Shown in pieces: positions 3,301 through 62,871 of a DNA stretch of 64,000 bases. The position numbers and the translations under genes were made by a program. The notes under the pieces were generated by a model. That model was not told the DNA's origin and did not search any database. It saw only the letters and a list, made by a program, of their open reading frames with translations. The DNA is from Eriocheir sinensis (Eukaryota > Arthropoda > Malacostraca > Decapoda > Varunidae): NCBI RefSeq assembly GCF_024679095.1, contig NC_066528.1:18186332-18250331 (forward strand), given 5' to 3'. Position 1 is the first letter of the stretch, and each line of letters begins with the position of its first letter.

Positions 3301-6300
3301 TTGTGTGAGGGGTGATTTTTTCTCATTTTTCTCGCTTGGAGGGACCATTAAGAAACTGGGTTAGTCCTCAGACAGCAGAAGTATTGGAAGAGTACCTCAC
3401 CCAAAAATGAATCTATATATAGTCACTGGTGATCTTAGGAGCATAGCATATATATAGTTACGCTGCATAAGAGATGTTTTAACCCCTTGACTGTGGATTT
3501 CCTACCAGAAGACATCACCAAGCTACAGGAATGGAACAAAAAGTGGCTGCTACAATTCAATGAAGAAAAATGTAAAGTCCTGCACCTTGGGAGGGGATAT
3601 CCAGCACACCAATACCACATGGGGAACACTCCACTATCCACCACAGAAGCAGAGAAAGACCTGGGAGTGTATGTTACCAGGCAATACCACATGGGAAACA
3701 CTCCACTATCCACCACAGAGCCAGAGAAAGACCTGGGAGTGTATGTTACCAGGCAATACCACATGGGAAACACTCCACTATCCACCACAGAGGCAGAGAA
3801 AGACCTGGGAGTGTATGTTACCAGGCAATACCACATGGGAAACACTCCACTATCCACCACAGAGCCAGAGAAAGACCTGGGAGTGTATGTTACCAGGCTA
3901 CCAGTGAAGGCGAAATCCATGCCAATCGCAGTGGATGGGTTAAACGAATATATCATAAAAGTGAAAAAATAAAAGAAATCCCACACCTTTGAGTAGCACT
4001 TCTTAATTTCTTCATCCAACTGGTCCATGAACTTGAGGTTGAAGACACTCTGAATGACCTCGGAGGGAAGGTGGCCGTACATGTTCATTGCCAGGCACAT
4101 CTGCAGGACACTCAGCCCCTTCAAGTTATGCCTCTCCCTGGAAAACATGTAAATATTAATAAAGAGAAAACACGGTACACCACAAAACCATAACATACCA
4201 AATAACTGTAAATAGAGGGTGCTGTGTGTGTGTGTGTGTGTGTGTGTTTACCTAGTTGTGAAATACAGGAAAAGAGTCATATTAGGCTCATGCTGTCCCG
4301 TCTCCATAACGCTTATTATCCAGTTTGGCTTTAAATTCATGAATCGTTTTTGCACACACAGTCTCCTCGTCAAGTCCGTTCCATGTTGTTACGCTTCTGT
4401 ATGGAAAACTGTATTTCTTGATGTCTCTCCTACAATCGCTCTTCTTCAATTTCTTACCGTTGCCTCTTGTCACACTTCTGTCACGTACCACTAGGTCTTC
4501 CCTGTGTGTGTGTGTGTTTGCGTAGGAGTTTTCCGTAATGCATTGGACACAAATTATTTTAAACCCTATCATTTACATTTTATTTAATTCTCATATTTTG
4601 CAAACACGTCAGGCTGATAGTTCATGTAGACCATTGACAGGTGAGTTGATATTCGCCACAAGCAGAAGAGCAACAATTTCCACTGAGTGCGTTAGACAAA
4701 AAGAGTGAGAGAAAAAGCTCTAGACAAAAAGAGTTAGAGAAAAGGAGTTAAGAGAAAAGGGTTAGACGAAAGAGTTAGACAAAAGTTAGACAATAGAGTT
4801 AGACAAAAGAGTTAGACAGTAGAGTTATGCAAAAGAGTTAGACAAAAAGAGTTAGACAATACAGTTAGACAAAAAGAGAATCCCAGCAAAAAACACGTAC
4901 TCCAGGAAGGCATTTGAGCAGGCGGCCAGGAGCTGATCTACATGGGGAGGAGTGTAGCCGAGACTGTAGAAGCACATCAGCACCAGGTCCATCGTATCAG
5001 CAAGGAGGAACTCTTGGTTGCTCACGACATACTGAGAAACAGCCTCAAGAATCTGGGAAAGCAGTTTGAAGGTCTTGTTCATTGTGGTGTCTGGAGAAGG
5101 GCGTAAGGGACGGAACCATTTTTTTTTAGTTTGTGTTGGGAATGGTACACAGGCAGGTGGGCTAAACATTCAGGAAGGTGCTGGGTATCGTGTGTTTAAA
5201 GATACCCTAAACTTAACCTAACCTAACCTAACCTAACAAAACCCCAAACAGTTACTCTAGGTCTTGGCTCAGAAAATTCATATATGTTTCCTTACTAATG
5301 AGATTTTCTATGCAACAAAGTGAGGTCATTCTTTGTTGATTTATACCATAAGGTGCTGGCTATCATGTGTTTAAAGATACCCTAAACTTAACCTAACCTA
5401 ACAAAACCCCAAACAGTTACTCTAGGTCTTGGCTCAGAAAATTCATATATGTTTCCTTACTAATGAGACTTTCTATGCAACAAAGTGAGGTCATTCTTTG
5501 TTGATTTATACCATAAGGGGCTGGCTATCATGTGTTTAAAGATACCCTAAACTTAACCTAACCTAAACTAACAAAACCCCAAACAGTTACTATAGGTCTT
5601 GGCTCAGAAAATTCATATATGTTTCCTTACTAATGAGACTCTCTATGCAACAAAGTGAGGTCATTCTTTGTTGATTTATACCATAAGGTGCTGGCTATCA
5701 TGTGTTTAAAGATACCCTAAACTTAACCTAACCTAACCTAACAAAACCCCAAACAGTTACTATAGGTCTTGGCTCAGAAAATTCATATATGTTTCCTTAC
5801 TAATGAGACTTTCTATGCAACAAAGTGAGGTCATTCTTTGTTGATTTATACCAAAAGGTGCTGGCTATCATGTGTTTAAAGATACCCTAAACTTAATCTA
5901 ACCTAACCTAACAAAACCCCAAACAGTTACTATAGGTCTTGGCTCAGAAAATTCATATATGTTTCCTTACTAATGAGACTTTCTATGCAACAAAGTGAGG
6001 TCATTCTTTGTTGATTTATACCATAAGGGGCTGGCTATCATGTGTTTAAAGATACCCTAAACTTAACCTAACCTAACCTAACAAAACCCCAAACAGTTAC
6101 TATAGGTCTTGGCTCAGAAAATTCATATATGTTTCCTTACTAATGAGACTCTCTATGCAACAAAGTGAGGTCATTCTTTGTTGATTTATACCATAAGGTG
6201 CTGGCTATCATGTGTTTAAAGATATCCTAAACTTAATCTAACCTAACCTAACAAAACCCCAAACAGTTACTCTAGGTCTTGGCTCAGAAAATTCATATAT

Positions 6301-9300
6301 GTTTCCTTACTAATGAGACTTTCTATGCAACAAAGTGAGGTCATTCTTTGTTGATTTATACCATAAGGTGCTGGCTATCATGTGTTTAAAGATACCCTAA
6401 ACTTAACCTAACCTAACCTAACAAAACCCCAAACAGTTACTAAAGGTCTTGACTCAGAAAATTCATATATGCTTCCTTACTAATGAGACTTTCTATGCAA
6501 CAAAGTGAGGTCATTCTTTGTTGATTTATACCATAAGGTGCTGGCTACCATGTGTTTGAAGATGCCCTAAACTTAACCTAACCTAACCTAACAAAACCCC
6601 AAACAGTTACTATAGGTCTTGACTCAGAAAATTCATATATGCTTCCTTACTAATGAGACTTTTCATACAACAAAGTGAGGTCATTCTTTGTTGATTTATA
6701 CCATAAGGTGCTGGCTGTCATGTGTTTGAAGATACCCTAACCTAACCTAACCTAACAAAACACCAAAAGTTATTATAGGTCTTAACTCAGAAAATTCATA
6801 TATGCTTCCTTACTAATGAGACTTTTCATACAACAAAGTGAGGTCATTCTTTGTTGATTTATACCATAAGGTGCTGGCTATCATGTGTTTGAAGATACCC
6901 TAACCTAACCTAACCTAACAAAACCCCAAAAGTTATTATGGGTCTTAACTCAGAAAATTCATACATGCTTCCTTACTAATGATACTCTCTACACAACAAA
7001 GTGAGGTCATTCTTTCTTGATTTATACCATAAGGTGCTGGCTGTCATGTGTTTGAAGATACTCTAACCTAACCTGACCTAACAAAACCCCAAAAGTTATT
7101 ATGGGTCTTAACTCAGAAAATTCATATATGCTTCCTTACTAATGAGACTTTTCATACAACAAAGTGAGGTCATTCTTTCTTGATTTATACCATAAGGTGC
7201 TGGCTGTCATGTGTTTGAAGATACCCTAACCTAACCTAACCTAACAAAACCCCAAAAGTTATTATGGGTCTTAACTCAGAAAATTCATATATGCTTCCTT
7301 ACTAATGAGACTTTTCATACAACAAAGTGAGGTCGTTCTTTGTTGATTTATACCATAAGGTGCTGGCTGTCATGTGTTTGAAGATACCCTAACCTAACCT
7401 AACCTAACAAAACCCCAAAAGTTATTATAGGTCTTAACTCAGAAAATTCATATATGCTTCCTTACTAATGAGACTTTTCATACAACAAAGTGAGGTCATT
7501 CTTTGTTGATTTATACCATAAGGTGCTGGCTGTCATGTGTTTGCAGATACCCTAACCTAACCTGACCTAACAAAACCCCAAGCACTAAAAAACAGAGCCA
7601 ACCTAAATATTGAATACGACTTACATCTGGCGCCAAATACAATGTGTTATTGAAACTCAGGCAGATGTCTCTTATGTGGCGGGCATTCAGCTCATGCAGG
7701 AGTGGAGGGTACGCAGCCATGATCCTGTCGAAGGTGAATGTCCTCGGTGACCCCTTACGGTTGAGGTAGGCTCGCGTAAGGTTGGTGACGTCAATCAGTG
7801 ACGAGGCAGACTGGAAGAGGCGAGAGGTGTGAGTAGGTATTGTTACGCCTGGGGTAATAATTGTTAGTTAAGATGAAATGTAAATAAAACTTGTATGAAA
7901 ATAATTAGAAGTGCTGGAGGAAACGAGTGAGGGTCAATTTAAGGAAAAACTGGACAAATATAGATAATGAGATAGAATTGTAATATAAAAACAAACTGTA
8001 TGGAGTGACTCAGATGTGGCAGAGGCAAAGAGTGTGTGGCAATTTAAGGATAAACTGAACAAATACAGGTAACTCTCAATTTACGTGAGTTTGGTTTGCG
8101 CGTTTTTTTAAATAACGCTGGGTCCAAAATCCAAATAAATGTTTAATTTACATGTTTTTTTTCACTTATACGTGATATTTTATGGAGTGGCCACCAGATG
8201 TCTCACGCAACTGGACTCACACGGCGCCGCGGCCACACAGCTGAGCTCAGTTCTCCCCGTGCGCCACTTGAACAACAGTACAGTACCCACGCTGCCACAC
8301 TACTCAACAACAACAACAACCTCGCTGCTGTGCTACCACGAGGGGAAGGGCAGCCAGAGGAGGAACCACGAGAGGGAGAGGAGTCAGAGTGATACAGTAC
8401 ACAATAAAGGTACAAACCTACCTCTTGTTTGATTTACATTGGTTTTGATTTACGCGACCTCTTCAAGAATACAATACTCGCGTAAATCGAGAGTTACCTG
8501 TGTAAATGAGACAGAGCTGCAAAGGCATAGCTCAGGCCCCGTATACCACAACTAGGTAAGTACACTAATACCAAATCTCTTGCTCAATGCTCTACTAACG
8601 CATCAACAGGTTCTGGCCTTGTTGTAATAAAACCAATTATTCCTTTCAATAAGCAACTGATTACGCTATGATATCTTTTAGCTCCACAAGGTTCTGCTGT
8701 CCACTCTATCATAAGCTTTTGAAATCTGAGCATATACTTGAAACTTTTCCTGTGTCTAAAGCATGAAGTGTTGAAGGATTATTAGCATTGCATCAAGTAA
8801 CACAAACCTTCAAAAATTCCTCCGTTCTGGCGTCCAGCACGCGACAAATGGTTGTGATCTGCTGCATCAGTTTCCTCTGCACGTTCTTGCGGTTGAGGGC
8901 CAGGGAAATCTGTATTCCTCGAGATAATATTAGCGTGTCAAATATTGAGAACTGTGGTCCGCAGAGTAAGACTTTTTCGTAAACATCTTCCGGTATTCCT
9001 TCACTTGAGGAGTAACTGATGATAAAGGAAGCCATGTTGGCAACCTTGTTTGGCAAGTGCCCCATGCAGGTTTTTAAGTCCTCCAGAAGCAGGTGTGTCA
9101 GGGCCTTCTCCAGGGCATAGTTCCTGTAGGTGCCGCCGAGGTTGTTGTTGAAGTACATGTAGCGCTGGTACACCTTCCTGCGGGCCATCTCCTGGAGGCC
9201 CAGCCGGTAGGGTCTGCTCTGCAGCTCCTCCTCCACGGAGGTCATCGACTTCATCCAGAAGGCATCGCAAAGCTTAGTGTTAGATGTTTTAATGTGCCTC

Positions 9301-10658
9301 AAAGCTTTGAAAATAACCATTATGTATTCATATAGGTCCTTCTGCTCAAGCTGCTCAGCTATGAGTACCTCAAAGAAGCGCTTACTCTTCAGGGGTGTGA
9401 AGGGAGCCATGCACAGTATGTCTGGCCTCCCACCTGTTATTTTGGCCTCCTCCATTGAATTGACGGAATACTGACGAATCTTGTGGAATATCCCGCTGGG
9501 CTCCAGGTAACTCTGGAAGTAGATGCTCAGATCCAAGACCTGCATGGCACTGAGGGCGTGGAAGTTCTCCTCAAGGCACTGCATCAGGTGGCGGACATGT
9601 CTGCGCACCGGGGGCCACTCTGGAAAGGTGAGCAGCTTTATCGCTTTCAGTGTTACTCTTGGGTCACAGGTCTTGAAAAATCCTTCATTTATTCTCTTCT
9701 CAATCAAAGCTATGTACTTTTCTATGAGGGACTTTGTAACAAGTCTCTTTGAGCTGCTGAGGCATATGGTTATCATGAGAAACTCATCAGCATCTAAATC
9801 ATCATCAAGCTTTCTTGCAATCATAGGAAGCAATCTTGACTGCAGAAAGTATCCCCTGATGCCTTGCTCACGTAGGTACACAGAAAGTCTTGATAGGGCA
9901 GTCAGGTTGAAGTCACTGATCCTCTCCAAACAAAGCAATGACAGCTTTTGCTGGATTGCTGAATCATTTCTTACTCCTAGTTTACTAAGATAGAGCATCA
10001 TGGAGGAAAGAGCATTATTATTCAAGTCTCCACAGACTGCCTCCAAGCATGACACAATCTTTTCAAAGGACGGATGAGTCAAAATCTTCTCCAAGAACTG
10101 ATTGATCTCACATTTGGTAATCATGGAACACTCAAAGCCATACTTTCCATACACCTTTTGGAGGTCCCAAAGAGTCACAATCGCCTGACTTATTTGTTCA
10201 GCCGTTGGAGGCTCCCTTGACCCCTCTATTTGGTCAAACACTTCCTGCATACTGTTGGCTTCATTAATCTTCTTGATGACAGGGTCACTTGAGCCAGGAT
10301 ACAAGTTCACGCGGAGACTGTCCAACTGATCTTTCTCCAGCAATTTTCTTCTAAAAAAAACATTACCATCAAATTCAGAATCACTCATCATGCCATCCTC
10401 GCTGTCACTCGCCGTGCTGACTGCATAGCACCTTTTAGGAAGGCTATGTCTGGCTTGAGTTAAGGAACATTCTGTGAGTAGTGGAACCCTTCTCTCGCTG
10501 AATGAACCGCAGCTTGCATGAGCAACAGGGCTGTAAAAATGTTGGTGAAGAAATCTGGTAATGTGTCGAGTCCCAGAGAGGCAGACAGAAAGCTGCCTTG
10601 GGCCACAGCCTGCCACCCACAGCACATTGACAGGAATGTTGAACCTCATGGCTCAGAT
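124..10658 (-). CDS. FAST kinase domain-containing protein (FASTKD1-like), nine exons
   Basis: Members of this family are mitochondrial RNA-binding proteins that act in mitochondrial mRNA processing and stability. Exons read on the minus strand: 10658-8808 (ATG at 10649), 7810-7625, 5090-4901, 4137-3987, 2835-2655, 1787-1674, 685-594, 462-377 (tentative) and 328-124 (stop). Almost every exon has an AG acceptor, a GT donor and matching phase. The exception is the junction 7625/5090, where phase does not match (0 against 1), so a small exon or another donor is missing. The long helical N-terminal part, FAST-type segments in the middle exons (residues such as LLSQILEAVSQYVV and LSVLQMCLAMNMYG), the DFEFVLDG segment and a final RAP domain identify the family. 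The product would be about 1010 aa, longer than vertebrate members. FASTKD1 is my best subtype from the long N-terminal helical region, but FASTKD5 or another member is possible. Introns are packed with satellites and LINE-derived arrays. Confidence 0.85.
664..1150. repeat. three tandem copies of about 160 bp that include the start of a FASTKD exon
   Basis: The segment ACACAAACTCAAAAT recurs near 670, 833 and 988, each followed by the same GTTAGGAGGC(A/T)GCCAAGCACATC block and ending in TTTGTAAATATCCCTCA. The first copy overlaps the 5' end of the coding exon 685-594 and its acceptor. The extra copies carry a TGTAA in place of the TGCAG acceptor, so they look like non-functional echoes of the exon start. 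Confidence 0.8.
1150..1650. repeat. purine-rich (AAG/GAA)n low-complexity tract
   Basis: About 500 bases are almost only A and G on the plus strand, with interspersed ACAAAACAG units. The long reading frames on either strand here are Ser/Phe or Lys/Glu low complexity and not genes. Confidence 0.9.
2183..2440 (+). repeat. LINE-derived in-frame tandem array A (72-bp units, about 3 copies)
   Basis: Units read YHMGNTPLSTTEAEKDLGVY, the end of a LINE reverse transcriptase (the usual context is FNEEKCKVLHLG before it and EKDLGV in it). Each unit is 72 bp, so the reading frame is kept through the array. It lies in an intron of the FASTKD-like gene, antisense to that gene. Confidence 0.85.
2880..3180. 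repeat. fragments of the dispersed GGGCCGTATT-type MITE
   Basis: Two partial copies of a repeat with GACAAGGCTTT(C/A)GTAGGAGTTGTG, a CCCTTCCTC block and TACCATGAACCTAAAGAAAC. Better-preserved copies lie at 42018-42237 and 57420-57643. Confidence 0.6.
3201..3360. mobile_element. TTAA family A MITE fragment
   Basis: Shares AAATTTGTGCCATGATATAA, ATAGATGATGCATAATCTGA and the segment ATTTTTCTCGCTTGGAGGGA with the complete copies at 13120 and 30058. The termini are degraded. Confidence 0.65.
3484..3960 (+). repeat. LINE-derived in-frame tandem array B (4 copies)
   Basis: Begins with a readable reverse-transcriptase segment (DITKLQEWNKKWLLQFNEEK, then CKVLHLGRGYPAHQ) and continues with four 72-bp units ending EKDLGVYVTR, then LPVKAKSMPIAVD. 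It is a fragment of a non-LTR retrotransposon in which one small block has been amplified. It lies in an intron of the FASTKD-like gene. Confidence 0.85.
4286..4500 (-). mobile_element. LINE reverse-transcriptase C-terminal fragment
   Basis: The minus strand reads DCRRDIKKYSFPYRSVTTWN followed by GLDEETVCAKTIHEFKAKLD and ending in the LINE-typical NKRYGDGTA. This is the usual end of CR1/Jockey-like reverse transcriptases (a ...FPYRSV..WN.L...... FK..LD pattern). No other part of the element is nearby. Confidence 0.75.
4680..4885. repeat. short tandem repeat, unit about GAGTTAGACAAAA
   Basis: About 15 degenerate copies of a 10 to 16-base unit. It runs to the donor side of the FASTKD-like exon 5090-4901. 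Confidence 0.85.
5176..7590. repeat. satellite of about 170-bp units carrying CCTAA (TTAGG) telomere-like runs
   Basis: About 14 to 15 copies. Each unit has GGTGCTGGCTATCATGTGTT, then GATACCCTAA, two to four CCTAA repeats, AACAAAACCCCAAA, TATAGGTCTTGGCTCAG and CAACAAAGTGAGGTCATTC. Units up to about 6500 share CCCTAAACTTAACC. Later units have CCCTAACCTAACC and AAAGTTATTATGGG, so two subfamilies follow each other. The array fills the intron between the FASTKD-like exons at 7625 and 5090. Confidence 0.95.
7880..8560 (+). mobile_element. LINE 3' tail fragment, split by a MITE
   Basis: Two overlapping LINE ends with AATTTAAGGA(T/A)AAACTG and ACAAATA are visible (reading QFKDKLNKY). The remainder, TAAATGAGACAGAGCTGCAA to AACTAGGTAAGTAC, resumes after the inserted element 8066-8500. 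Confidence 0.6.
8066..8500. mobile_element. TIR MITE, CAGGTAACTC family, copy 1
   Basis: Starts CAGGTAACTCTCAATTTACG and ends CGTAAATCGAGAGTTACCTG, a near-perfect inverted pair of about 22 bases. It is inserted inside a LINE tail. A second copy with the same interior lies at 30984-31408. The small frames inside (GLTRRRGHTAELSS) are shared but short, and I do not call them genes. The CAGG start with a TA-rich target resembles pogo/Tigger ends; this class is a guess. Confidence 0.8.
8808..10658 (-). CDS. FASTKD-like gene, first coding exon (614 codons)
   Basis: This single large exon carries the N-terminal 614 residues. The acceptor is a CTCTCTTCCAG immediately before 10658, so an untranslated exon lies further upstream. 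An in-frame TGA sits two codons before the ATG at 10649, which supports that start. The first 40 or so residues are rich in Arg, Ser and hydrophobics with few acids (MRFNIPVNVLWVAGCG), as expected of a mitochondrial presequence. The rest reads as Leu-rich helical repeats such as LTALSRLSVYLREQGI, typical of the helical array before the FAST domains. It ends in AAG followed by the donor gtttgt at 8807, phase 0. Confidence 0.9.
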
Positions 10659-16181: not shown

Positions 16182-16700
16182 CATGTCCACTGCGACTGGC
16201 ACGGATTTGGCCTTCACTGGTAGCCTGGTAGCATACACTCCCAGGTCTTTCTCTGCCTCTGTGGTGGATAGTGGAGTGTTTCCCATGTGGTATTGGTGTG
16301 CTGGATATCCCTCCACTGGTAGCATACACTCCCAGGTCTTTCTCTGCCTCTGTGGTGGATAGTGGAGTGTTTCCCATGTGGTATTGGTGTGCTGGATATC
16401 CCTCCACTGGTAGCCTGGTAGCATACACTCCCAGGTCTTTCTCTGCCTCTGTGGTGGATAGTGGAGTGTTTCCCATGTGGTATTGGTGTGCTGGATATCC
16501 CTTCACTGGTAGCCTGGTAGCATACACTCCCAGGTCTTTCTCTGCCTCTGTGGTGGATAGTGGAGTGTTTCCCATGTGGTATTGGTGTGCTGGATATCCC
16601 CTCCCAATGTGCAGGACTTTACATTTTTCTTCATTGAATTGTAGCAGCCACTTTTTGTTTAATTCCTGTAATTTGGTGATGTCTTCTTGTAATAAATCCA
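16182..16700 (-). repeat. LINE-derived in-frame tandem array C (99-bp units, 4 copies)
   Basis: The minus strand begins DITKLQELNKKWLLQFNEEK and then has four units, most of 99 bp, each GYPAHQYHMGNTPLSTTEAE to KDLGVYATRLPV. One unit is shortened. The same reverse-transcriptase block is amplified as at 2183, 3484 and 34930, but with a longer unit that includes GYPAHQ and TRLPV. Confidence 0.9.
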
Positions 16701-21334: not shown

Positions 21335-22260
21335 CACTGTTACTGCTGCTGCTACTATTACTGGACTAGAAGTAATAAATCAGTTACATATAATATTCAT
21401 TCCTAACTGCAGATTGATGATAATTTGTAAACATACGAGTACATACATCAAAATCATATGCAGGGATCTCATTGAGGGAAGATAAATACAAACTAACCAC
21501 ACGTGAACCACAACTATAGACTCAAAAACAATCAAAAGCGAAGGCGTGAATTCACCTTCTAATCTGCCCAGGTCCTGCCTCGCCGCCCAGCCTACGGTCC
21601 GGCCAGAAATAAGGACACTTGGCAGGAGTTACAGACACAGAGTAGCGTCCGGCGAGGTATTCTTGTTGGGGCTGCGACGTGATGAGGAGACAGCTATACA
21701 AATGATGGAGTTGGGACGGACGTGTTCCCTGCATCTTCCGCTCACGAGGCCTTGCTTTAGTTCACCTCACGCTGGGGAATAACAGTGGTAGGAGTTTAGT
21801 TCGGGGAGATCATTATCTACAGAGCGTTCCAGACACAAAGGGATCTCTGGCGCTACAGTTCCTGGGTGGCGGCGGGGGTCACAGCCTCACGCGGCCGGGC
21901 AGGGGTTCATAGAGGCTGTTCTCGATGACCTGCACCGTCCCTGGCTGTTCCTGGCGGGCGGCGGGGATCATGCGGCCGGGCAGGGGTTCATAGAGGCTGT
22001 TCTCGATGACCTGCACCGTCCCTGGCTGTTCATGGCGGGCGGCGGGGATCATGCGGCCGGGCAGGGGTTCATAGAGGCTGTTCTCGATGACCTGCACCGT
22101 CCCTGGCTGTTCCTGGCGGGCGGCGGGGGTCATGCGGCCGGGCAGGGGTTCATACAGGCTGTTCTCGATGACCAGATTGGAATCCCTTGTGCCTGCACCT
22201 TGGTGGCCGGTCGACTGAATGGACCTCGACTCTGTTTCTGTTGATCAATTTGTAATATAA
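20680..22260 (-). repeat. left arm of an inverted segmental duplication (partner 58300-60640)
   Basis: On the minus strand this stretch repeats the plus-strand order at 58320-60640: tail exon, then GTAACTCCTGCCAAGTGTCC, CTGGGCGGCGAGGCAG, the (TAG)n run, CACAATGGCCGGCCGGATAC, GCTCAGCGGCAAGGATGGTG, then AAGATAGCAAAATGCGCTCC. Similarity is very high by eye and differences are scattered single bases, so the duplication is recent. Confidence 0.85.
21092..21097 (-). promoter_or_regulatory. polyadenylation signal of receptor copy 1
   Basis: AATAAA on the minus strand in the conserved context CGCTTGAAGGAAATAAACTC. Confidence 0.65.
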
Positions 22261-22538
22261 TTTAAGTTTATTACCATTATCATTATTATCATCATCATCA
22301 TCATAGTCTCTCTCTCACTCTCTCTCTCTCTTATAAACACACACACACACACACACACACACAATAGAATACACTAACCTGGGGCCGAGGGTCTCCGCCG
22401 CAGCTTCCAAATGATCACACCTACCGTCACAGCCGCCACCACACCCCCCGCCACCCCCGCCACTATTATCACATATGTGGGCAGCGAGCCAGAGGAAGGA
22501 CTGTTCTCCGTGGTGGTGGTGTTAAGGCAGGGGTCTGG

Positions 22539-23661
22539 GGTGGGTTTCATCATAGTGCTCTCCCAGGCGTGGTGACGTCACGCGCAGTTGGGAGAATTTC
22601 TTGGGCGTGTTTCATCACCGCGCCACAAGCACTTCCAAGTAGGATTGGGGCGGTCTTGGGAGAAACCAGCGTTGCCAATCTTCCACGTCGCTTTGACGTC
22701 TAATATGTCTTCAATTAACCTAAATTACACTTCTTATGTATAATTATGGAATTATAAATATAATCAATTGATATTTAGTTGAAATACAGCGATAGTATCT
22801 TCATTGTAAGGAATATGTGCACGTATTTTTGTTCCGTCTGCATCTTCAACGGCACCACGGTGTAAACAAACATTTAGTGTGTCGTGAGTAGACCCTGGCC
22901 ACCTCGCCACCATGTCCCGCAGCTTGTACTGTGCATCAAATAACACTTGCACATTGATGCTGTGGTAGTTCTTGCGGTTGACGTACACTTCTTCGTGCTC
23001 ATGAGGGGCCACTATTCTTACGTAGGTGCCATCAACAGCACCCACCACACCAGGAAAACCAGCAATATCGGCAAACTCCGCCTTCATTCTCTGCTTCTTC
23101 CCCCGGTTTAAAAGGAAGCCCATGAACCGCCTCATATTCTCTTGTGTCACGAGAGCATCCACGGTCTGGGTGATGATTCTGCTGACTGTGGCCCGGGAAA
23201 CTCCAAAGTCATCTGCGCTGCACTGCTGCATTTTCCCGGTGGTGAGGTATAACAGAGTCAATGCCACTTTCAGCTCCGCTGTGACCGCACGGCTCCTCTC
23301 AGTCCTGTTGCCAGTCACGTGTCGCACCAAGTCAGTGACGAACAACAGGCCAGCACGATCCACCCTGTACCTCTTCTTGAACTCGGTGTCATCGTACTCA
23401 TTAAAGATGTCCCTTCTCGGGCGAAAATTCCTTGGTCGGTGCTGGCGGGGTTGTTCACGGGCTGCCATGTTTACAGTCTGACGCTTGGAACCTTCCTTGG
23501 GAGCGCTTGGGAGACCCCGCATGGCCTCCCAAGGCGGCGAGCGAGATAGGCAGAGTTCCAAGGCTTGGGAGCTTTCGTGAAACATGCCCAAGGTTTCTCG
23601 CACGCTTGGGACTCCTTGAGCACACTTCCATGGACTTGGGAACTTTGATGAAACCCACCCC
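22539..23661 (-). mobile_element. PIF/Harbinger transposon inserted in receptor copy 1
   Basis: Inverted termini GGTGGGTTTCATCA (22539) and TGATGAAACCCACC (near 23645-23660). A 3-base duplication TGG (22536-22538 and 23662-23664) flanks it. Three-base duplications and this transposase class both fit PIF/Harbinger. The host sequence without the insert is recovered by comparison with copy 4. Confidence 0.85.
22764..23468 (-). CDS. HARBI1-like DDE nuclease/transposase, C-terminally truncated
   Basis: The ATG at 23468 gives 234 aa. The N part is basic (RPRNFRPRRDIFNEYDDTEF), then a helix-turn-helix-like region (CSADDFGVSRATVSRIITQT). The catalytic domain shows GVVGAVDGTYVRIVAPHEHE (first Asp) and ARWPGSTHDTLN (second Asp). 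Family members are about 350 aa and continue to a third acidic residue in a GD-GY type motif. Here the frame ends at AVFQLNIN, so the third catalytic residue is missing and the enzyme is probably inactive. The Myb-like partner protein usual for autonomous Harbingers is not in the element. Confidence 0.85.
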   Translation of the reverse strand: MAAREQPRQHRPRNFRPRRDIFNEYDDTEFKKRYRVDRAGLLFVTDLVRHVTGNRTERSRAVTAELKVALTLLYLTTGKMQQCSADDFGVSRATVSRIITQTVDALVTQENMRRFMGFLLNRGKKQRMKAEFADIAGFPGVVGAVDGTYVRIVAPHEHEEVYVNRKNYHSINVQVLFDAQYKLRDMVARWPGSTHDTLNVCLHRGAVEDADGTKIRAHIPYNEDTIAVFQLNIN

Positions 23662-24749
23662 TGGTGGGCCGTTGAGTAGCCATTCGGAGGCACCAGTCAC
23701 AGAAACCGACAGGCGTGCAATGTTCTTCAATTTGTAAGAACCATTTTTTGTTTGGACACAACTGTCGAATGTCAGATTAGATTCGACCTTGGAGGTTGTG
23801 AGAGCATCCGGCACGACCTTTACTTCCACCGTCACCAGCGTCCAATTGGCACTGCTCAGGTTGCAGCTCTTGACATTAAAACAATGCTCAACTTTTCCTT
23901 CAAGTGTTTCGTCTTCCACTTTGACGCAGAAACCCTCAAAGTCATCTCCCGGCTTCACATACAACGATATCGACGTGGCGTTTTGTGGTTGCGTTTCATT
24001 CTCCTGATAGATTTTTTTTTCTTCTCCCTCCTTCACGACTACATCAGGCTCGACACAGTCCTTGGCGAAGGCGAGGCCGAGGCCAAGGGCGCCCACAAAG
24101 ACCACAACGAGCAGGACAACCACAGCCACGCGTCCCGCCATCACCAGCGCGTGGGTGTGAGTACTACATGAGAAAACACATATAGGCAGACCAATCGTGC
24201 TCGCTTTCCGGTGTGGTACGTGTCGTCTCACATCCTTTGTCGTGAAACATCCCATCCGGGCCTGATCTACTATCACAGAGCAGCTTATAAGTGAAGCACC
24301 TAAGTTTTAAGAAAGTACCAAGGAGGTCCTGAAAAGCGATGCAAAGCGAAACAGGTCACATGAAGAAGAAGAGTGACTTGATATCGGCCATTAAAGGGAA
24401 TGGGCTAAAGAGTAGCTTAGCCGGATATTTTGTTTTTATTTATCAATGATCCACGAGGCATCCTAGAGTTAGATCAAAGTATGTGCTTATCTTTGTATTC
24501 ATTCATACACACTCTGGTAATATTTCTGTGGGGTCTGATTCACTTATTAGAGTGAAATTCTATTGTGATAAAAAGTCACAAATTCGTGTCACTAGTAAAA
24601 ATGAAACTAGTAATTTAAGTTTTGCCACCATGAAATATATACAGATAGATAAATATGAAAGTTCACGAAGTCACAATAAGAGACATCACCCGCTTTGCGC
24701 AGTAAAAATATGCTATTTTAGGTATTTGATACCCGCAATATCGTATGAC

Positions 24750-26136: not shown

Positions 26137-26712
26137 ATGGTGGGTGGGCGTGTATTCTTGGTCGTCCTGCTCGTTGTGGCCTATGTGTGCGCCAAGCCTC
26201 CTGATGTAGTCGTGAAGAAGGGAGAAGATAAAATAATCTATCAGAATGAAACACAAGCACAAAACGCCGCGTCGACATCGTTGTGTGTGAAGCCTGGAGG
26301 TTTGTTGAGTGTCTGCGTCAAGGTGGAAGACGAAACACTTGCAAAAAATGCTGAGGGATGTTTCGATACCAAGAGCTGCAGCCTGACCAGTGCCCCGTGG
26401 AAGCTGGTGACGGTGGAAGCAAAGGTCTTGCCGGGCATAGTTTCCACACGCTTCAGCGTCGAATATAATCTGACCTTCGACGGTTGTGTCCAAACGAAAA
26501 AGGAAGTTTACGAGTCGGAAAACATTGCACGCCTGACGGTTTCTGCAGGTGGTGCCTCTGAATGGCAACTCAACGGCTGCCCTGACCCCACCACGGAGGA
26601 CCCTTCCTCTGACTCGCTGCCCACATATGTCATTGTGATAATAGTGCTGGTGGCTTTGGCGGTGGCGGCGGTGGCGGCGGTGCTGGGTGTGGTCTTTTTG
26701 AAGCGGAAGTAG
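26137..26712 (+). CDS. receptor-like gene copy 2, tailless membrane protein (191 aa)
   Basis: ATG at 26137. Signal peptide MVGGRVFLVVLLVVAYVCAK, then PPDVVVKKGEDKIIYQNE and an ectodomain with the family marks CVKPG, VCVKVEDET, CFDTKSC, FDGC and IARLTV, an SEWQLNG end and a short stalk (DPTTEDPSSDS). The membrane helix is YVIVIIVLVALAVAAVAAVL and the frame stops right after FLKRK. The other copies continue through KRQRxxSxP to a phase-1 donor. The GTTAGTG donor text is still present downstream at about 26728, but behind the stop. The tail exon at 27196 is decayed. So this copy codes for a tailless surface protein with an otherwise intact frame. The leader differs from copies 1 and 4. Confidence 0.8.
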   Translation: MVGGRVFLVVLLVVAYVCAKPPDVVVKKGEDKIIYQNETQAQNAASTSLCVKPGGLLSVCVKVEDETLAKNAEGCFDTKSCSLTSAPWKLVTVEAKVLPGIVSTRFSVEYNLTFDGCVQTKKEVYESENIARLTVSAGGASEWQLNGCPDPTTEDPSSDSLPTYVIVIIVLVALAVAAVAAVLGVVFLKRK

Positions 26713-27195: not shown

Positions 27196-27412
27196 AAAGT
27201 CTTGAGGTGCATGCAGTCATCCGGCCGCCGAGTTACAGACACAGGATATTCTGGGCAGGTCATCAAGAACAGCTTGTATGAAACCCCTGCCCGGCCCCGT
27301 GACCCCAGCCGCCCACCAGTAACAGCCAGGGATGGTGCAGGTCATCGAGAACAGCCTGTATGAACCCCTGCCCGGCCCTGTGATCCTGCTTCCACCCAGA
27401 AATCGTAGTGCC
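27196..27412 (+). pseudogene. decayed tail exon of receptor copy 2
   Basis: The acceptor TTGATCAACAG is preserved, but a deletion after AAAG shifts the frame, an extra A lies in TATGAAACCCC of the first motif, and a stop (CAGTAACAG) replaces CAGGAACAG. Two repeats remain, with the second SLYEPL still readable in another frame. Confidence 0.85.
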
Positions 27413-34682: not shown

Positions 34683-35315
34683 TCTTAACCCCTTGACTGC
34701 AGATTTCCTACAAGAAGACATCACCAAGCTACAGGAATGGAACAAAAAGTGGCTGCTACAATGCAATGAAGAAAAATTACGTTGAGGGTTTTTAAGAATG
34801 AGTTTTGTTATTTTTTATTCCCACATCAGGACATAAAGAAAAGTACACCATGTGGTAATCATTTTCTCTCTCTCTTAACCCCTTGACTGCAGATTTCCTA
34901 CAAGAAGACATCACCAAGCTACAGGAATGGAACAAAACGTGACTGCTACAATGTAATGAAGAAAAACGTAAAGTCCTGCACCTTGGGAGGGGATATCCAG
35001 CATACCAATACCACATGGGAAACACTGCACTATCCACCACAGAAGCAGAGAAAGACCTGGGAGTATATGTTTCCAGGCTACCAGTGAAGGGATATCCAGC
35101 ATACCAATACCACATGGGAAACACCGCACTATCCACCACAGAGGCAGAGAAAGACCTGGGAGTATATGTTTCCAGGCTACGAGTGAAGGGATATCCAGCA
35201 TACCAGTACCACATGGGAAACACCGCACTACCCACCACAGAGGCAGAGAAAGACCTGGGAGTATATGCTTCCAGGCTACCAGTGAAAGCCAAATCCATGC
35301 AATCACAGCGGACGG
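34683..35315 (+). repeat. LINE-derived in-frame tandem array D (3 copies)
   Basis: A first partial start at 34686, then the full start at 34883 (EDITKLQEWN, with an inserted stop) and three units GYPAYQYHMGNTALSTTEAE to KDLGVYVSRLPV. Unit length is about 90 to 99 bp. The array follows directly after the duplicated RAP exon. Confidence 0.85.
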
Positions 35316-50739: not shown

Positions 50740-51427
50740 ATGGCAAGACGTGTGGTTGTGGTTGCCTTGCTCGCCCTAGGCTATGGAGGCGCCCTCTGCC
50801 TCGCCTCGGCCTGGGACTGTGCCAAGCCTGATCAAGTCGTGAATAACACCGTTGAAAGTGTTTATTACAAATATGCAGACCAACCGCAAAAAAGCATGTC
50901 GACATCGTTATACGTGAAGCCGGGAAGTGACTTTAAGGCTGTCTGCGTCAGGGCGAGGAACGAAACTGTAGAACCAATTGAAGTTTGTTTTCCTGGTGAA
51001 AGAATGGAGCTAAACAGTACCACGTGGAATCTGTTGAAGGTGAAAGTAGAGGTCGTGAGTTATGTTTTCAGTTATTCGATCAGATTTCGTCTGGAGGTCG
51101 GCAGTAATACCAAAACGGAAGAGAAAGCCTACAGTACATCGGCTATCACACGTTTGAGAGTTTTAGCTAATGGCACCTCGGAATGGCTACTCGAACCACC
51201 AGACCCCTGCCCTAACACCACCACTGAAAACCCTACCTCTACCCCTCCATCCACGTCTTCTTTCAACTCTCTGACCACTGAGGACCAAGAACACTACACT
51301 TCTACCGAGATCCCAGCAGAAGTTTCAAAACCTCAGTCGCTGATGGTGATTATAGTGCCTGTGGTGGCGGTGACATTGGCAATAGTGGTGGCCATTTGGA
51401 AGAGGCAACGGAGACCTTCGACCCAAC
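50740..51427 (+). CDS. receptor-like gene copy 3, signal peptide to membrane helix exon
   Basis: ATG at 50740. Signal peptide (MARRVVVVALLALGYGGALC), then WDCAKPDQVVNNTVES, an ectodomain with SLYVKPGSDF, VCVRARNET, VCFPG, LNSTTWNLLKV and ITRLRVLANGTSEW, and an expanded Thr/Ser/Pro stalk (NTTTENPTSTPPSTSS and more) that is longer than in the other copies. Helix VIIVPVVAVTLAIVVAIW, then KRQRRPSTQ and the donor AAC|gttagt at 51428 (phase 1). It lacks the FDGC cysteine region that copies 1, 2 and 4 have. Several N-glycosylation sites (NNT, NET, NST, NGT, NTT). The matching tail exon is at 58335, phase compatible. Full product would be 483 aa. Confidence 0.8.
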
Positions 51428-58334: not shown

Positions 58335-59098
58335 AAACAGTGTCGAGGTCCATTCAGTCGACCGGCCGCCGAGGTGCAGGTACAAGGGATTCCATGCAGG
58401 TCATCGAGAACAGCCTGTATGAACCCCTGCCCGGCCCCATGACCCCCGCCACCCGCCAGGAACAGCCAGGGACGGTGCAGGTCATCGAGAACAGCCTGTA
58501 TGAACCCCTGCCCGGCCCCGTGACCCCCGCCGCCCGCCAGGAACAGCCAGGGACGGTGCAGGTCATCGAGAACAGCCTGTATGAACCCCTGCCCGGCCCC
58601 ATGACCCCCGCCGCCCGCCAGGAACAGCCAGGGACAGTGCAGGTCATCGAGAACAGCCTCTATGAACCCCTGCCCGGCCCCATGACCCCCGCCGCCCGCC
58701 AGGAACAGCCAGGGACGGTGCAGGTCATCGAGAACAGCCTGTATGAACCCCTGCCCGGCCCCATGACCCCCGCCGCCCGCCAGGAACAGCCAGGGACAGT
58801 GCAGGTCATCGAGAACAGCCTGTATGAACCCCTGCCCGGCCCCGTGACCCCCGCCGCCCGCCAGGAACAGCCAGGGACAGTGCAGGTCATCGAGAACAGC
58901 CTGTATGAACCCCTGCCCGGCCCCGTGACCCCCGCCGCCCGCCAGGAACAGCCAGGGACAGTGCAGGTCATGGAGAACAGCCTGTATGAACCCCTGCCCA
59001 GCCCCATGACCCCCGCCGCCTACCAGGAACAGCCAGGGACAGTGCAGGTCATCGAGAACAGCCTGTATGAACCCCTGCCCGGCCGCGTGGGGCCGTGA
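58335..59098 (+). CDS. receptor copy 3 cytoplasmic tail exon: ten SLYEPL repeats
   Basis: The acceptor TTGATCAACAG ends at 58334. With the phase-1 donor of the upstream exon the frame opens as QTVSRSIQSTGRRGAGTRDS, then ten 27-residue (81-bp) units, VIENSLYEPLPG followed by PMTPAARQEQPGTVQ. It stops at 59096-59098 after GRVGP. Each unit holds SLYEPL, which fits the ITIM pattern (S/I/V/L)xYxx(L/V/I). It also fits a YxxL sorting signal, and N-S-L-Y is an NxxY. Units are nearly identical at the base level, so recent homogenisation is likely. An AATAAA at 60220-60225 may end the transcript. Confidence 0.75.
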
Positions 59099-61371: not shown

Positions 61372-62462
61372 ATGGCGGGACGCGTGGCTGTGGTTGTCCT
61401 GCTCGTTGTGGTCTTCGTGGGCGCCCTCTGCTTCTCCTCCGCCAAGGACTGCTTCGACCCTGACGTAGTCGTGAAGGAGGGAGAAGAAAAAATAATCTAT
61501 CAGAAGAATGAAACGCAACCACGAAACGCCACGTCGATATCGTTGTATGTGAAGCCGGGAGATGACTTTGAGCAAGTCTGCATCAAGGTAGAAGACGAAA
61601 CGCTTAAAGAAAAAGCTGAGGAATGTCTTTCTGTCGCAGAATGTAACTTGAACAGTACCACGTGGAATCTATTGGAAGTGGGAGCAGAAGTTGTAAAAGA
61701 TGATTGTTCCGGAAAACACTGCAGGGTCAAATTCAATCTGACAGGCGACGGTTGTAGCAAGATGGAAAAGACACTTTACAGGTCGGAGAACATTACACGC
61801 CTGACGGTTTTTGCTGATGACGCCTCCAAATGGCTACTCAACGGCCCACCAGACCCATGCCCTGACACCACCACGGAGAACCCTTCCTCTGGCTGGCCGT
61901 CCACATCTAACACCACCACGGGGAACCCTTCCTCTGGCTCGCCGTCCACAACTGTACTGACTGTGATAATTGTGGTGATACTGGCGGCGGCGGTGGTAGG
62001 TGTGATCATCTGGAAGCGGCAGCGGAAACTCTCGGGCCCACGTTAGTGTTTTCTGGTGTGTGTGTGTTTACGAGAGAGAGAGAGAGAGAGAGAGATGATG
62101 ATGATGATGATGATAATAATGATAATGGTGATAAACAAAAAAAAATATATATTATAAGTTGATCAACAGAAAGAGTGTTGAGGTCCATTCAGTTGACCAG
62201 CCGCCGAGATACAGACACAGGATATTCTGGGCAGGTCGTCGAGAACAGCCTGTATGAACCCCTGCCCGGCCCCGTGACCCCCGCCGCCCGCCAGGAACAG
62301 CCAGGGACGGTGCAGGTCATCGAGAACAGCCTGTATGAACCCCTGCCCGGCCGCGTGACCCCCGCCGCCCGCCAGGAACAGCCAGGGACGGTGCAGGTCA
62401 TCGAGAACAGCCTGTATGAACCCCTGCCCTGCCGCGTGACCCCCGCCGCCACCCAGCATTAA
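61372..62462 (+). CDS. receptor-like gene copy 4, two exons, 320 aa
   Basis: Exon 1 is 61372-62041, exon 2 is 62170-62462, with the donor CAC|gttagtg, an intron of 128 bases holding (GT)n, (GA)n and (GAT)n, and the acceptor CAACAG. Phase 1 joins exactly. Residues 1-20 are the signal peptide (MAGRVAVVVLLVVVFVGALC), then KDCFDPDVVVKEGEEK. The ectodomain has ISLYVKPGDDFEQVC, KVEDET, a C-V-A-E-C pair, LNSTTWNLLEV, RVKFNLTGDGC, ITRLTV and SKWLLNGPPDPC. The stalk repeats TTTENPSSGWPSTSN. The membrane helix is about residues 195-213 (VLTVIIVVILAAAVVGVII) with WKRQRK after it. The tail has three 27-residue units with ENSLYEPLP. I choose the ATG at 61372 because the signal peptide starts there. AATAAA lies at 62866-62871. 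This is the most complete family member in the window. Confidence 0.85.
62170..62462 (+). CDS. receptor copy 4 cytoplasmic tail exon: three SLYEPL repeats
   Basis: Opens VLRSIQLTSRRDTDTGYSGQ and has the motif at three places, 27 residues apart. The end differs from copies 1 and 3 (TPAATQH and stop), because the last unit runs on past the point where the others gain a stop. Confidence 0.85.
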
Positions 62463-62865: not shown

Positions 62866-62871
62866 AATAAA
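62866..62871 (+). promoter_or_regulatory. polyadenylation signal of receptor copy 4
   Basis: AATAAA inside GCTTGAAGGAAATAAACTGA. The same context is kept in copies 1 and 3. Confidence 0.7.

Follow-up and report, generated by a model that had tools for sequence, protein, structure and literature searches.

A mitten crab family of receptor-like genes with arrays of tyrosine units in their predicted tails

Decapods lack antibodies and, to our knowledge, Dscam and a small number of other receptors aside, little has been described of the recognition repertoires in their germline. Dscam itself, the tail of which carries tyrosine motifs, is one Ig/FN3 gene diversified by splicing. In the part of the literature covered, it resembles the family reported here in being a diversified crab receptor, but the latter is made up of many small genes with another ectodomain, and no Ig/FN3 domains appear among the Pfam matches listed for exon 1 of gene A and for 14 members. 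VLR2, another diversified crab receptor, is LRR-based according to the excerpted account and distinct from the family with SLYEPL tails (PMC10045472).

The likeness to CED-1, Draper and MEGF10 lies in a single-pass layout and in a tail where YxxL or ITAM tyrosines stand beside a PTB site (NPxY), the CED-1 tail holding NPxY plus YxxL (PMC8092387, in excerpt). These receptors have EMI/EGF ectodomains and a few motifs, whereas the crab family has one modelled beta-sandwich and a tandem composite motif without NPxY; EMI/EGF domains are absent among the Pfam matches listed for 14 members (25 of 30 families) and from single rescans of 10 of these. In spacing, the APP tail and the Shc site of TrkA are similar to the crab unit, and APP and other NPxY tails share with it the arrangement E-N-x-x-Y-x-x-F-E, but crab units are repeated and have no Pro at -2, the likeness being at the level of the motif only. 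CD200R, the ectodomain of which is Ig, is a vertebrate receptor with one essential NPxY/NxxY site, in contrast to the repeated units of crab tails. The point of likeness, as given in excerpts of the CD200R paper, is the PTB-type NxxY of non-mammalian CD200R, which in birds overlaps the ITIM consensus; the same paper cites NxxY and Dok2 for VEGFR3 (PMC8007030). Finally, vertebrate paired receptors (KIR, LILR and others) are, from the part of the source available, also clustered multigene sets with similar ectodomains and with tailed and tail-less members (PMC3533184); in the crab family, a short-tail state is plain for gene C but only putative for most other members without a modelled tail. The crab family differs from them in its many more copies and in having no Ig-like or C-type lectin ectodomain among the Pfam matches listed for exon 1 and the 14 members. 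No description of such a family was found in the titles and abstract openings of the literature on crab and crustacean ITIMs, paired receptors, Eriocheir expansions and seven LOC numbers, a body of work with few subscription papers; within that same scope, an earlier sequence-only reading of this DNA was right to state that it knew of no described decapod family with this design.

Family genes of the window and their exon structure

The window, that is, the whole 64,000-nucleotide stretch of Eriocheir sinensis DNA analysed (18.19-18.25 Mb of contig C20), holds four family genes: A, D, B, which is interrupted by a transposon, and C, which has lost its tail through a stop (Table 1).

Table 1. 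Features of the four family genes, in positions of the window
Feature	Positions	Strand	Description
Gene A exon 1	61372..62041	+	ATG at 61372; predicted signal peptide, ectodomain, Thr/Ser/Pro stalk, membrane helix, basic stop-transfer
Gene A stalk tandem repeat, 45-bp	61865..61950	+	
Gene A phase-1 intron	62042..62169	+	GT donor at 62042, AG acceptor at 62168-62169; GA/GAT microsatellite inside
Gene A exon 2	62170..62462	+	cytoplasmic tail, 3 units V(V/I)ENSLYEPL at 27-residue spacing; stop at 62460
Candidate AATAAA, gene A 3' region	62866..62871	+	read from the sequence; second one at 62525
Gene D exon 1	50740..51427	+	ectodomain, stalk, membrane helix
Gene D exon 2	58335..59098	+	9-unit tail; putative intron of ~6.9 kb
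Gene B exon 1	22379..24141	-	1,123-bp Harbinger-like insertion separates the ectodomain part from the stalk part
Insertion in gene B, PIF/Harbinger-like	22538..23660	-	13-bp perfect inverted termini, CAG flanking both ends, transposase ORF with DDE_Tnp_4 + HTH_Tnp_4
Gene B exon 2	21879..22237	-	4-unit tail (RefSeq P0002: 3)
Gene C exon 1	26137..26712	+	ectodomain + membrane helix; stop directly after KRK
Gene C relic tail exon	27259..27370	+	VIKNSLYE + VIENSLYEPL units disrupted by frameshift and stop

In gene A, a hydrophobic N-terminus, from which the signal peptide is predicted, is followed by a Cys-bearing ectodomain, a stalk, a membrane helix, a basic stretch and the three-unit tail, and joining the two exons yields a product of 320 aa with three VxENSLYEPL units. 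The coordinates, the splice sites and this joined product agree with the design proposed from the letters alone, in which a phase-1 intron leads into 27-residue SLYEPL repeats, and the same layout in genes D and B bears out the further proposal of a receptor-like protein with a repeated-tyrosine tail that forms part of a family. Exon 1 of gene A, used as a genome-search query, found its sole 100% match at its own place. AlphaFold gives the gene A product a confident beta domain at 31-160 (pLDDT 85-96) and a helix at 193-218, the tail being of low confidence (pLDDT mostly <50). By eye, the intron ends of genes B and D and the 3' regions that follow the D and B tails resemble those of gene A, and the match of phase, intron ends and order suggests that the gene D tail exon at 58335 belongs with the exon 1 at 50740.

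Two RefSeq models and one paralogue support the joining of ectodomain and tail exons. P0001 (LOC127001312 isoform X27, named only 'uncharacterized') contains gene A exon 1 and is identical to the joined product over its first 273 residues, junction included; past unit 1 it exits gene A and enters a downstream SLCE-bearing array (L069), the last unit of which lies just outside the window. P0002 (LOC127001309) uses the equivalent junction in gene B and lacks one gene B unit. The paralogue L047 (C20:15202900-15203496, minus strand) is intronless and encodes ectodomain, helix and a one-unit tail in a single frame, its fusion point being the exon boundary, with GCAGCCAG directly followed by GAACAGTG, where the gene D tail exon starts AAACAGTG; this arrangement suggests cDNA-mediated intron loss or a retrocopy. 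The label 'isoform X27' tells only how many models the annotators built, and we take P0001 and P0002 to be models of the same assembly, not of another individual.

P0002 corresponds to the empty, insertion-free site of gene B; the transposon may be either polymorphic or bridged by the annotation pipeline. P0003 terminates at the same KRK as gene C, and the disrupted members of the family include B, C and L051, which speaks against a fully working set. The L069 array consists of Tyr-to-Cys units that isoform X27 joins to gene A and might provide it with a non-phosphorylatable alternative tail. Each 81-bp unit of genes A and D, and 3/4 units in gene B, starts with GTC and has CAG just before it; given these GT starts after CAG and the structure of the P0001 and P0002 models, splicing might leave out individual units or link one to an adjacent array. 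True splicing and misaligned reads are both possible sources of the unit differences in these two models.

Elsewhere in the window, tandem repeats of 72 to 99 bp occur at 2191-2409, 3610-3898, 16224-16600 and 34990-35286, the open frames of which read HQYHMGNTPLSTTEAEKDLGVYVT-like peptides; our guess is that they are an amplified piece of a retroelement. A 170-bp satellite (~14 copies, 95% identity) spans 5175-7571, and an uninterrupted open frame of 619 residues lies at 8793-10652 on the minus strand, with no Pfam match at E 0.01.

Size, spread and ectodomain of the family

Merged, three genome searches yield no fewer than 177 places that match the ectodomain exon, spread over 59 contigs, a figure that counts places rather than proven genes and is a lower bound for large families. 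Contig C20 accounts for 75 of them, 40 within 9.9-12.3 Mb. The P0009 query gave 122 scored matches (102 ectodomain-exon places), gene A exon 1 gave 61, and P0010 gave 102, of which 65 were classed as ectodomain, the class being assigned by the query range of the match. Most frames are open: in-frame stops occur in 4/102, 3/61 and 7/65 ectodomain rows for P0009, gene A exon 1 and P0010, respectively, leaving 98/102 P0009 matches without any stop. A first DNA pattern demanded TCN at a Ser codon that reads AGC in the window; it gave 89 genome hits, fewer than the 175 of its reversed-pattern control, and was dropped.

In protein searches that scored ~8,000 candidates each, the named hits are confined to Eriocheir sinensis and Chionoecetes opilio, which does not imply absence elsewhere. 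The E. sinensis matches P0001, P0002, P0005-P0010, P0013 and P0015-P0017 are all annotated as 'uncharacterized protein', and the C. opilio relatives, P0011 and P0012, are hypothetical proteins with consecutive locus tags. P0014 bears the name platelet glycoprotein Ib alpha chain-like, probably owing only to its stalk. P0014-P0017, which lie on other contigs, lack a modelled tail, and their mucin-like stalk is built from a TTPAPITRA repeat.

For the ectodomain, the model is a single beta-sandwich that has no clear PDB relative among the fold families listed; kinship with beta-sandwich lectins of the galectin, LG or SPRY type is possible. Of the 31 rows that a PDB sequence search returned (E up to 5), almost all fall on the stalk or membrane helix and one, at E 0.32, on the ectodomain, and the Pfam matches listed for gene A exon 1 and 14 members (10 rescanned singly) include no ectodomain family. 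The profile and structure search called for earlier supplied a beta-sandwich model, but neither a named family nor a clear PDB relative. Several matches were judged artefacts: the TMEM154, Psg1, SKG6, PRIMA1, DAP10 and similar Pfam hits, which fall on the stalk and membrane-helix region; Caenor_Her-1 in P0010 (lowest E 1.1e-5, above its cut-off), which falls at 369-386 in the tail repeats; and HTH_25, dbPDZ_assoc and AIM5 on the gene D tail, which are repeat matches. Viral fold matches, with TM-scores up to ~0.3, were given no weight, and a viral origin is unsupported, two peptide patterns having found no relative in IMG/VR.

Ectodomain dN/dS is near 1 (1.10 over 221 pairs, with dN > dS in 143), as obtained from a crude count over non-independent pairs that excluded those with <60% identity or <100 codons, identical pairs and pairs with dS outside 0.02-0.8 (8/229). 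Over the same 221 pairs, the 22 codons of the signal peptide show a dN of 0.065 and a dS of 0.045; since this ratio is no lower, the high dN/dS is not special to the ectodomain. The closest pairs (L065-L067) have a dN of 0. Among the window ectodomains, NG86 values are 0.62-0.96 and YN00 values 1.01-1.63, the latter being unstable, with two pairs without a value.

Conservation and candidate roles of the tail unit

Tails hold 1 to 9 units per gene. Across seven subfamilies (13, 5, 1, 2, 5, 8 and 5 units) the core V-[IV]-E-N-S-L-Y-E-x-[LF] is kept while the spacers differ, mean identity being 0.85 in the 10-residue core and 0.21 in the spacers, a contrast that is partly built in by a search pattern fixing N-3 and limiting -4, -2, -1, 0 and +1. 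V-6, which was free in that pattern, is identical in 7/7 subfamily consensuses, as are E-4, N-3, S-2, L-1, Y0 and E+1. Left out of this comparison are all P0001 units, the divergent unit that opens the P0007 array (INDNSRYQPS) and any end unit not long enough to fill the 27-residue frame. Because seven subfamilies share the core while their spacers vary, the repeat design of gene A is, to judge from the units themselves, not a product of chance.

When position -3 was ignored in the search, Asn was found there in 45/45 units from 12 sources and in 57/57 units from 18 tail exons, the latter making up the tail rows of the P0009 genome search (20 in total) save two, and including three that repeat sources of the motif set described below. 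The 57 units retain Tyr in 53 cases and carry at +3 F (38), L (15), C (2), I (1) or V (1). Most arrays have their units 27 residues apart; P0005 and P0006 have a spacing of 25, a spacing of 26 occurs once, and no unit is skipped. Among the 18 tail exons, 17 are spaced at 25, the exception being L088 with 30, 27 and 26. With the last unit of each array left out, pN/pS in the tail units of the window is 0.23 for the core versus 1.46 for the spacer (11 distinct units), and the contrast is weak in the 25-residue subfamily (0.51 versus 0.72; 19 distinct units).

Fit to docking consensuses was scored on a set of 77 units from 23 sources, 70 of them with Tyr and seven with C, N, F or L instead, found by a pattern that fixes N-3 and leaves -5 and +3 free; one of the four P0001 SLCE units (SLCESM) falls outside the slice. 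The PTB-type motif PhixNxxY (hydrophobic -5, Asn -3, Tyr 0) fits 64/70 Tyr units, its Asn being fixed by the pattern, and the remaining 6/70 have no hydrophobic residue at -5. NPxY occurs in 0/70 Tyr units. As excerpted, published cases indicate that Pro at -2 is dispensable for PTB binding, the Y759 of integrin beta3, in NxxY, interacting with Shc (PMC3281915), and a review assigns NPXpY to the Shc PTB domain and, to its SH2 domain, a motif of pY plus a hydrophobic residue (PMC5624076). The AIDA1 PTB consensus, YxNxPhiYxPsiFE in the part of the paper available, has N-3, hydrophobic -1 and F+3 in common with the YEPF and YESFE units of the crab (PMC3683042). No single known consensus accounts for the conservation of S-2, L-1 and E+1 together.

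We give an even chance to the reading that these are fast-evolving single-pass receptors in which the repeated units would be composite docking sites for PTB adaptors (E-N-x-x-Y) and AP-2 (Y-x-x-[LF]), with unit number setting avidity. From the features described we infer membrane topology, phosphorylation, PTB and AP-2 binding, ligand recognition and an immune or clearance role, which might be connected as follows. The variable beta-sandwich ectodomain would bind a ligand and the receptor would cluster; with the tail tyrosines exposed or phosphorylated, each unit could then dock PTB-domain adaptors and/or AP-2, and docking would lead to uptake, adaptor signalling or both, as with the CED-1/Draper, APP or CD200R tails, to a degree set by the number of units.

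The tail was earlier likened to an ITIM array, and it could indeed be one in which phosphorylated SLYEPL recruits an SH2 phosphatase (Corkscrew/SHP), its bearers being the inhibitory members of a paired-receptor-like set. The broad consensus (S/I/V/L)xYxx(I/V/L) fits 16/16 units of genes A, B and D, and there are members without a modelled tail (C, P0003, P0004 and P0014-P0017), gene C having lost its tail through a stop in the way of KIR2DS2, as the excerpted source describes it (PMC3533184); gene C has a real stop and a relic tail, and P0004 and P0014-P0017 may be incomplete models. Family-wide, however, the broad consensus fits just 29/70 Tyr units, the strict one ([ILV]xYxx[ILV]) fits 1/70, ITSM is found in none, and Phe takes +3 in 38/57. 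An ITIM also leaves the constant E-N at -4/-3 unexplained. Since a PTB site needs the constant E-N-x-L-Y and an ITIM does not require it, the ITIM interpretation is only partly right and is unlikely as the main one, an inhibitory ITIM role being possible for Leu+3 members.

We rate as similarly improbable that the array serves endocytic sorting alone, with YxxPhi binding AP-2 without phosphorylation in a scavenger or nutrient receptor that cycles fast. Of the Tyr units, 68/70 match YxxPhi, their +3 residue, a position unused in finding them, being L, F, V or I, and so the YxxL alternative entertained in the sequence-only reading suits the family well; but YxxPhi works with one copy and without an upstream E-N-S-L, whereas conservation here spans -6 to +1. 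It is very improbable that the repeat exon is no working tail but slippage-prone DNA beside ectodomain genes that a gene-prediction pipeline annotated as coding: unit number does differ between genome and RefSeq (4 in gene B, 3 in P0002), the A, B and D units are near-identical as DNA and AG/GT unit boundaries can misguide read alignment, but the core is kept at the protein level although the spacers change, both across several contigs and in Chionoecetes, L047 carries ectodomain, helix and tail in one frame, and core pN/pS is 0.23.

Taking up again the reading of the units as composite docking sites, a wider version of it, which we hold to be rather doubtful, is that the mitten crab possesses a diversifying repertoire of well over a hundred genes, exceeding the vertebrate paired-receptor clusters that it resembles, and that signal strength in it would be a digital count of PTB/endocytic Tyr units. 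In-frame slippage of 75-81 bp would alter that count, as would replacement of Tyr (decoy units with Cys, Asn, Leu, Phe or His), loss of the tail and, perhaps, splicing; the finding that signal peptide dN/dS is no lower than that of the ectodomain has lowered our estimate of it. Holding between 1 and 9 copies of a single docking motif, the tail would offer a natural titration series in which motif number can be set against receptor output. Found in a crab of aquaculture, with at least 177 ectodomain-exon places, frames that are mostly open and an ectodomain dN/dS near 1, the family would be a prime candidate for a germline recognition repertoire, and possibly represents an undescribed immune or clearance system of crabs.
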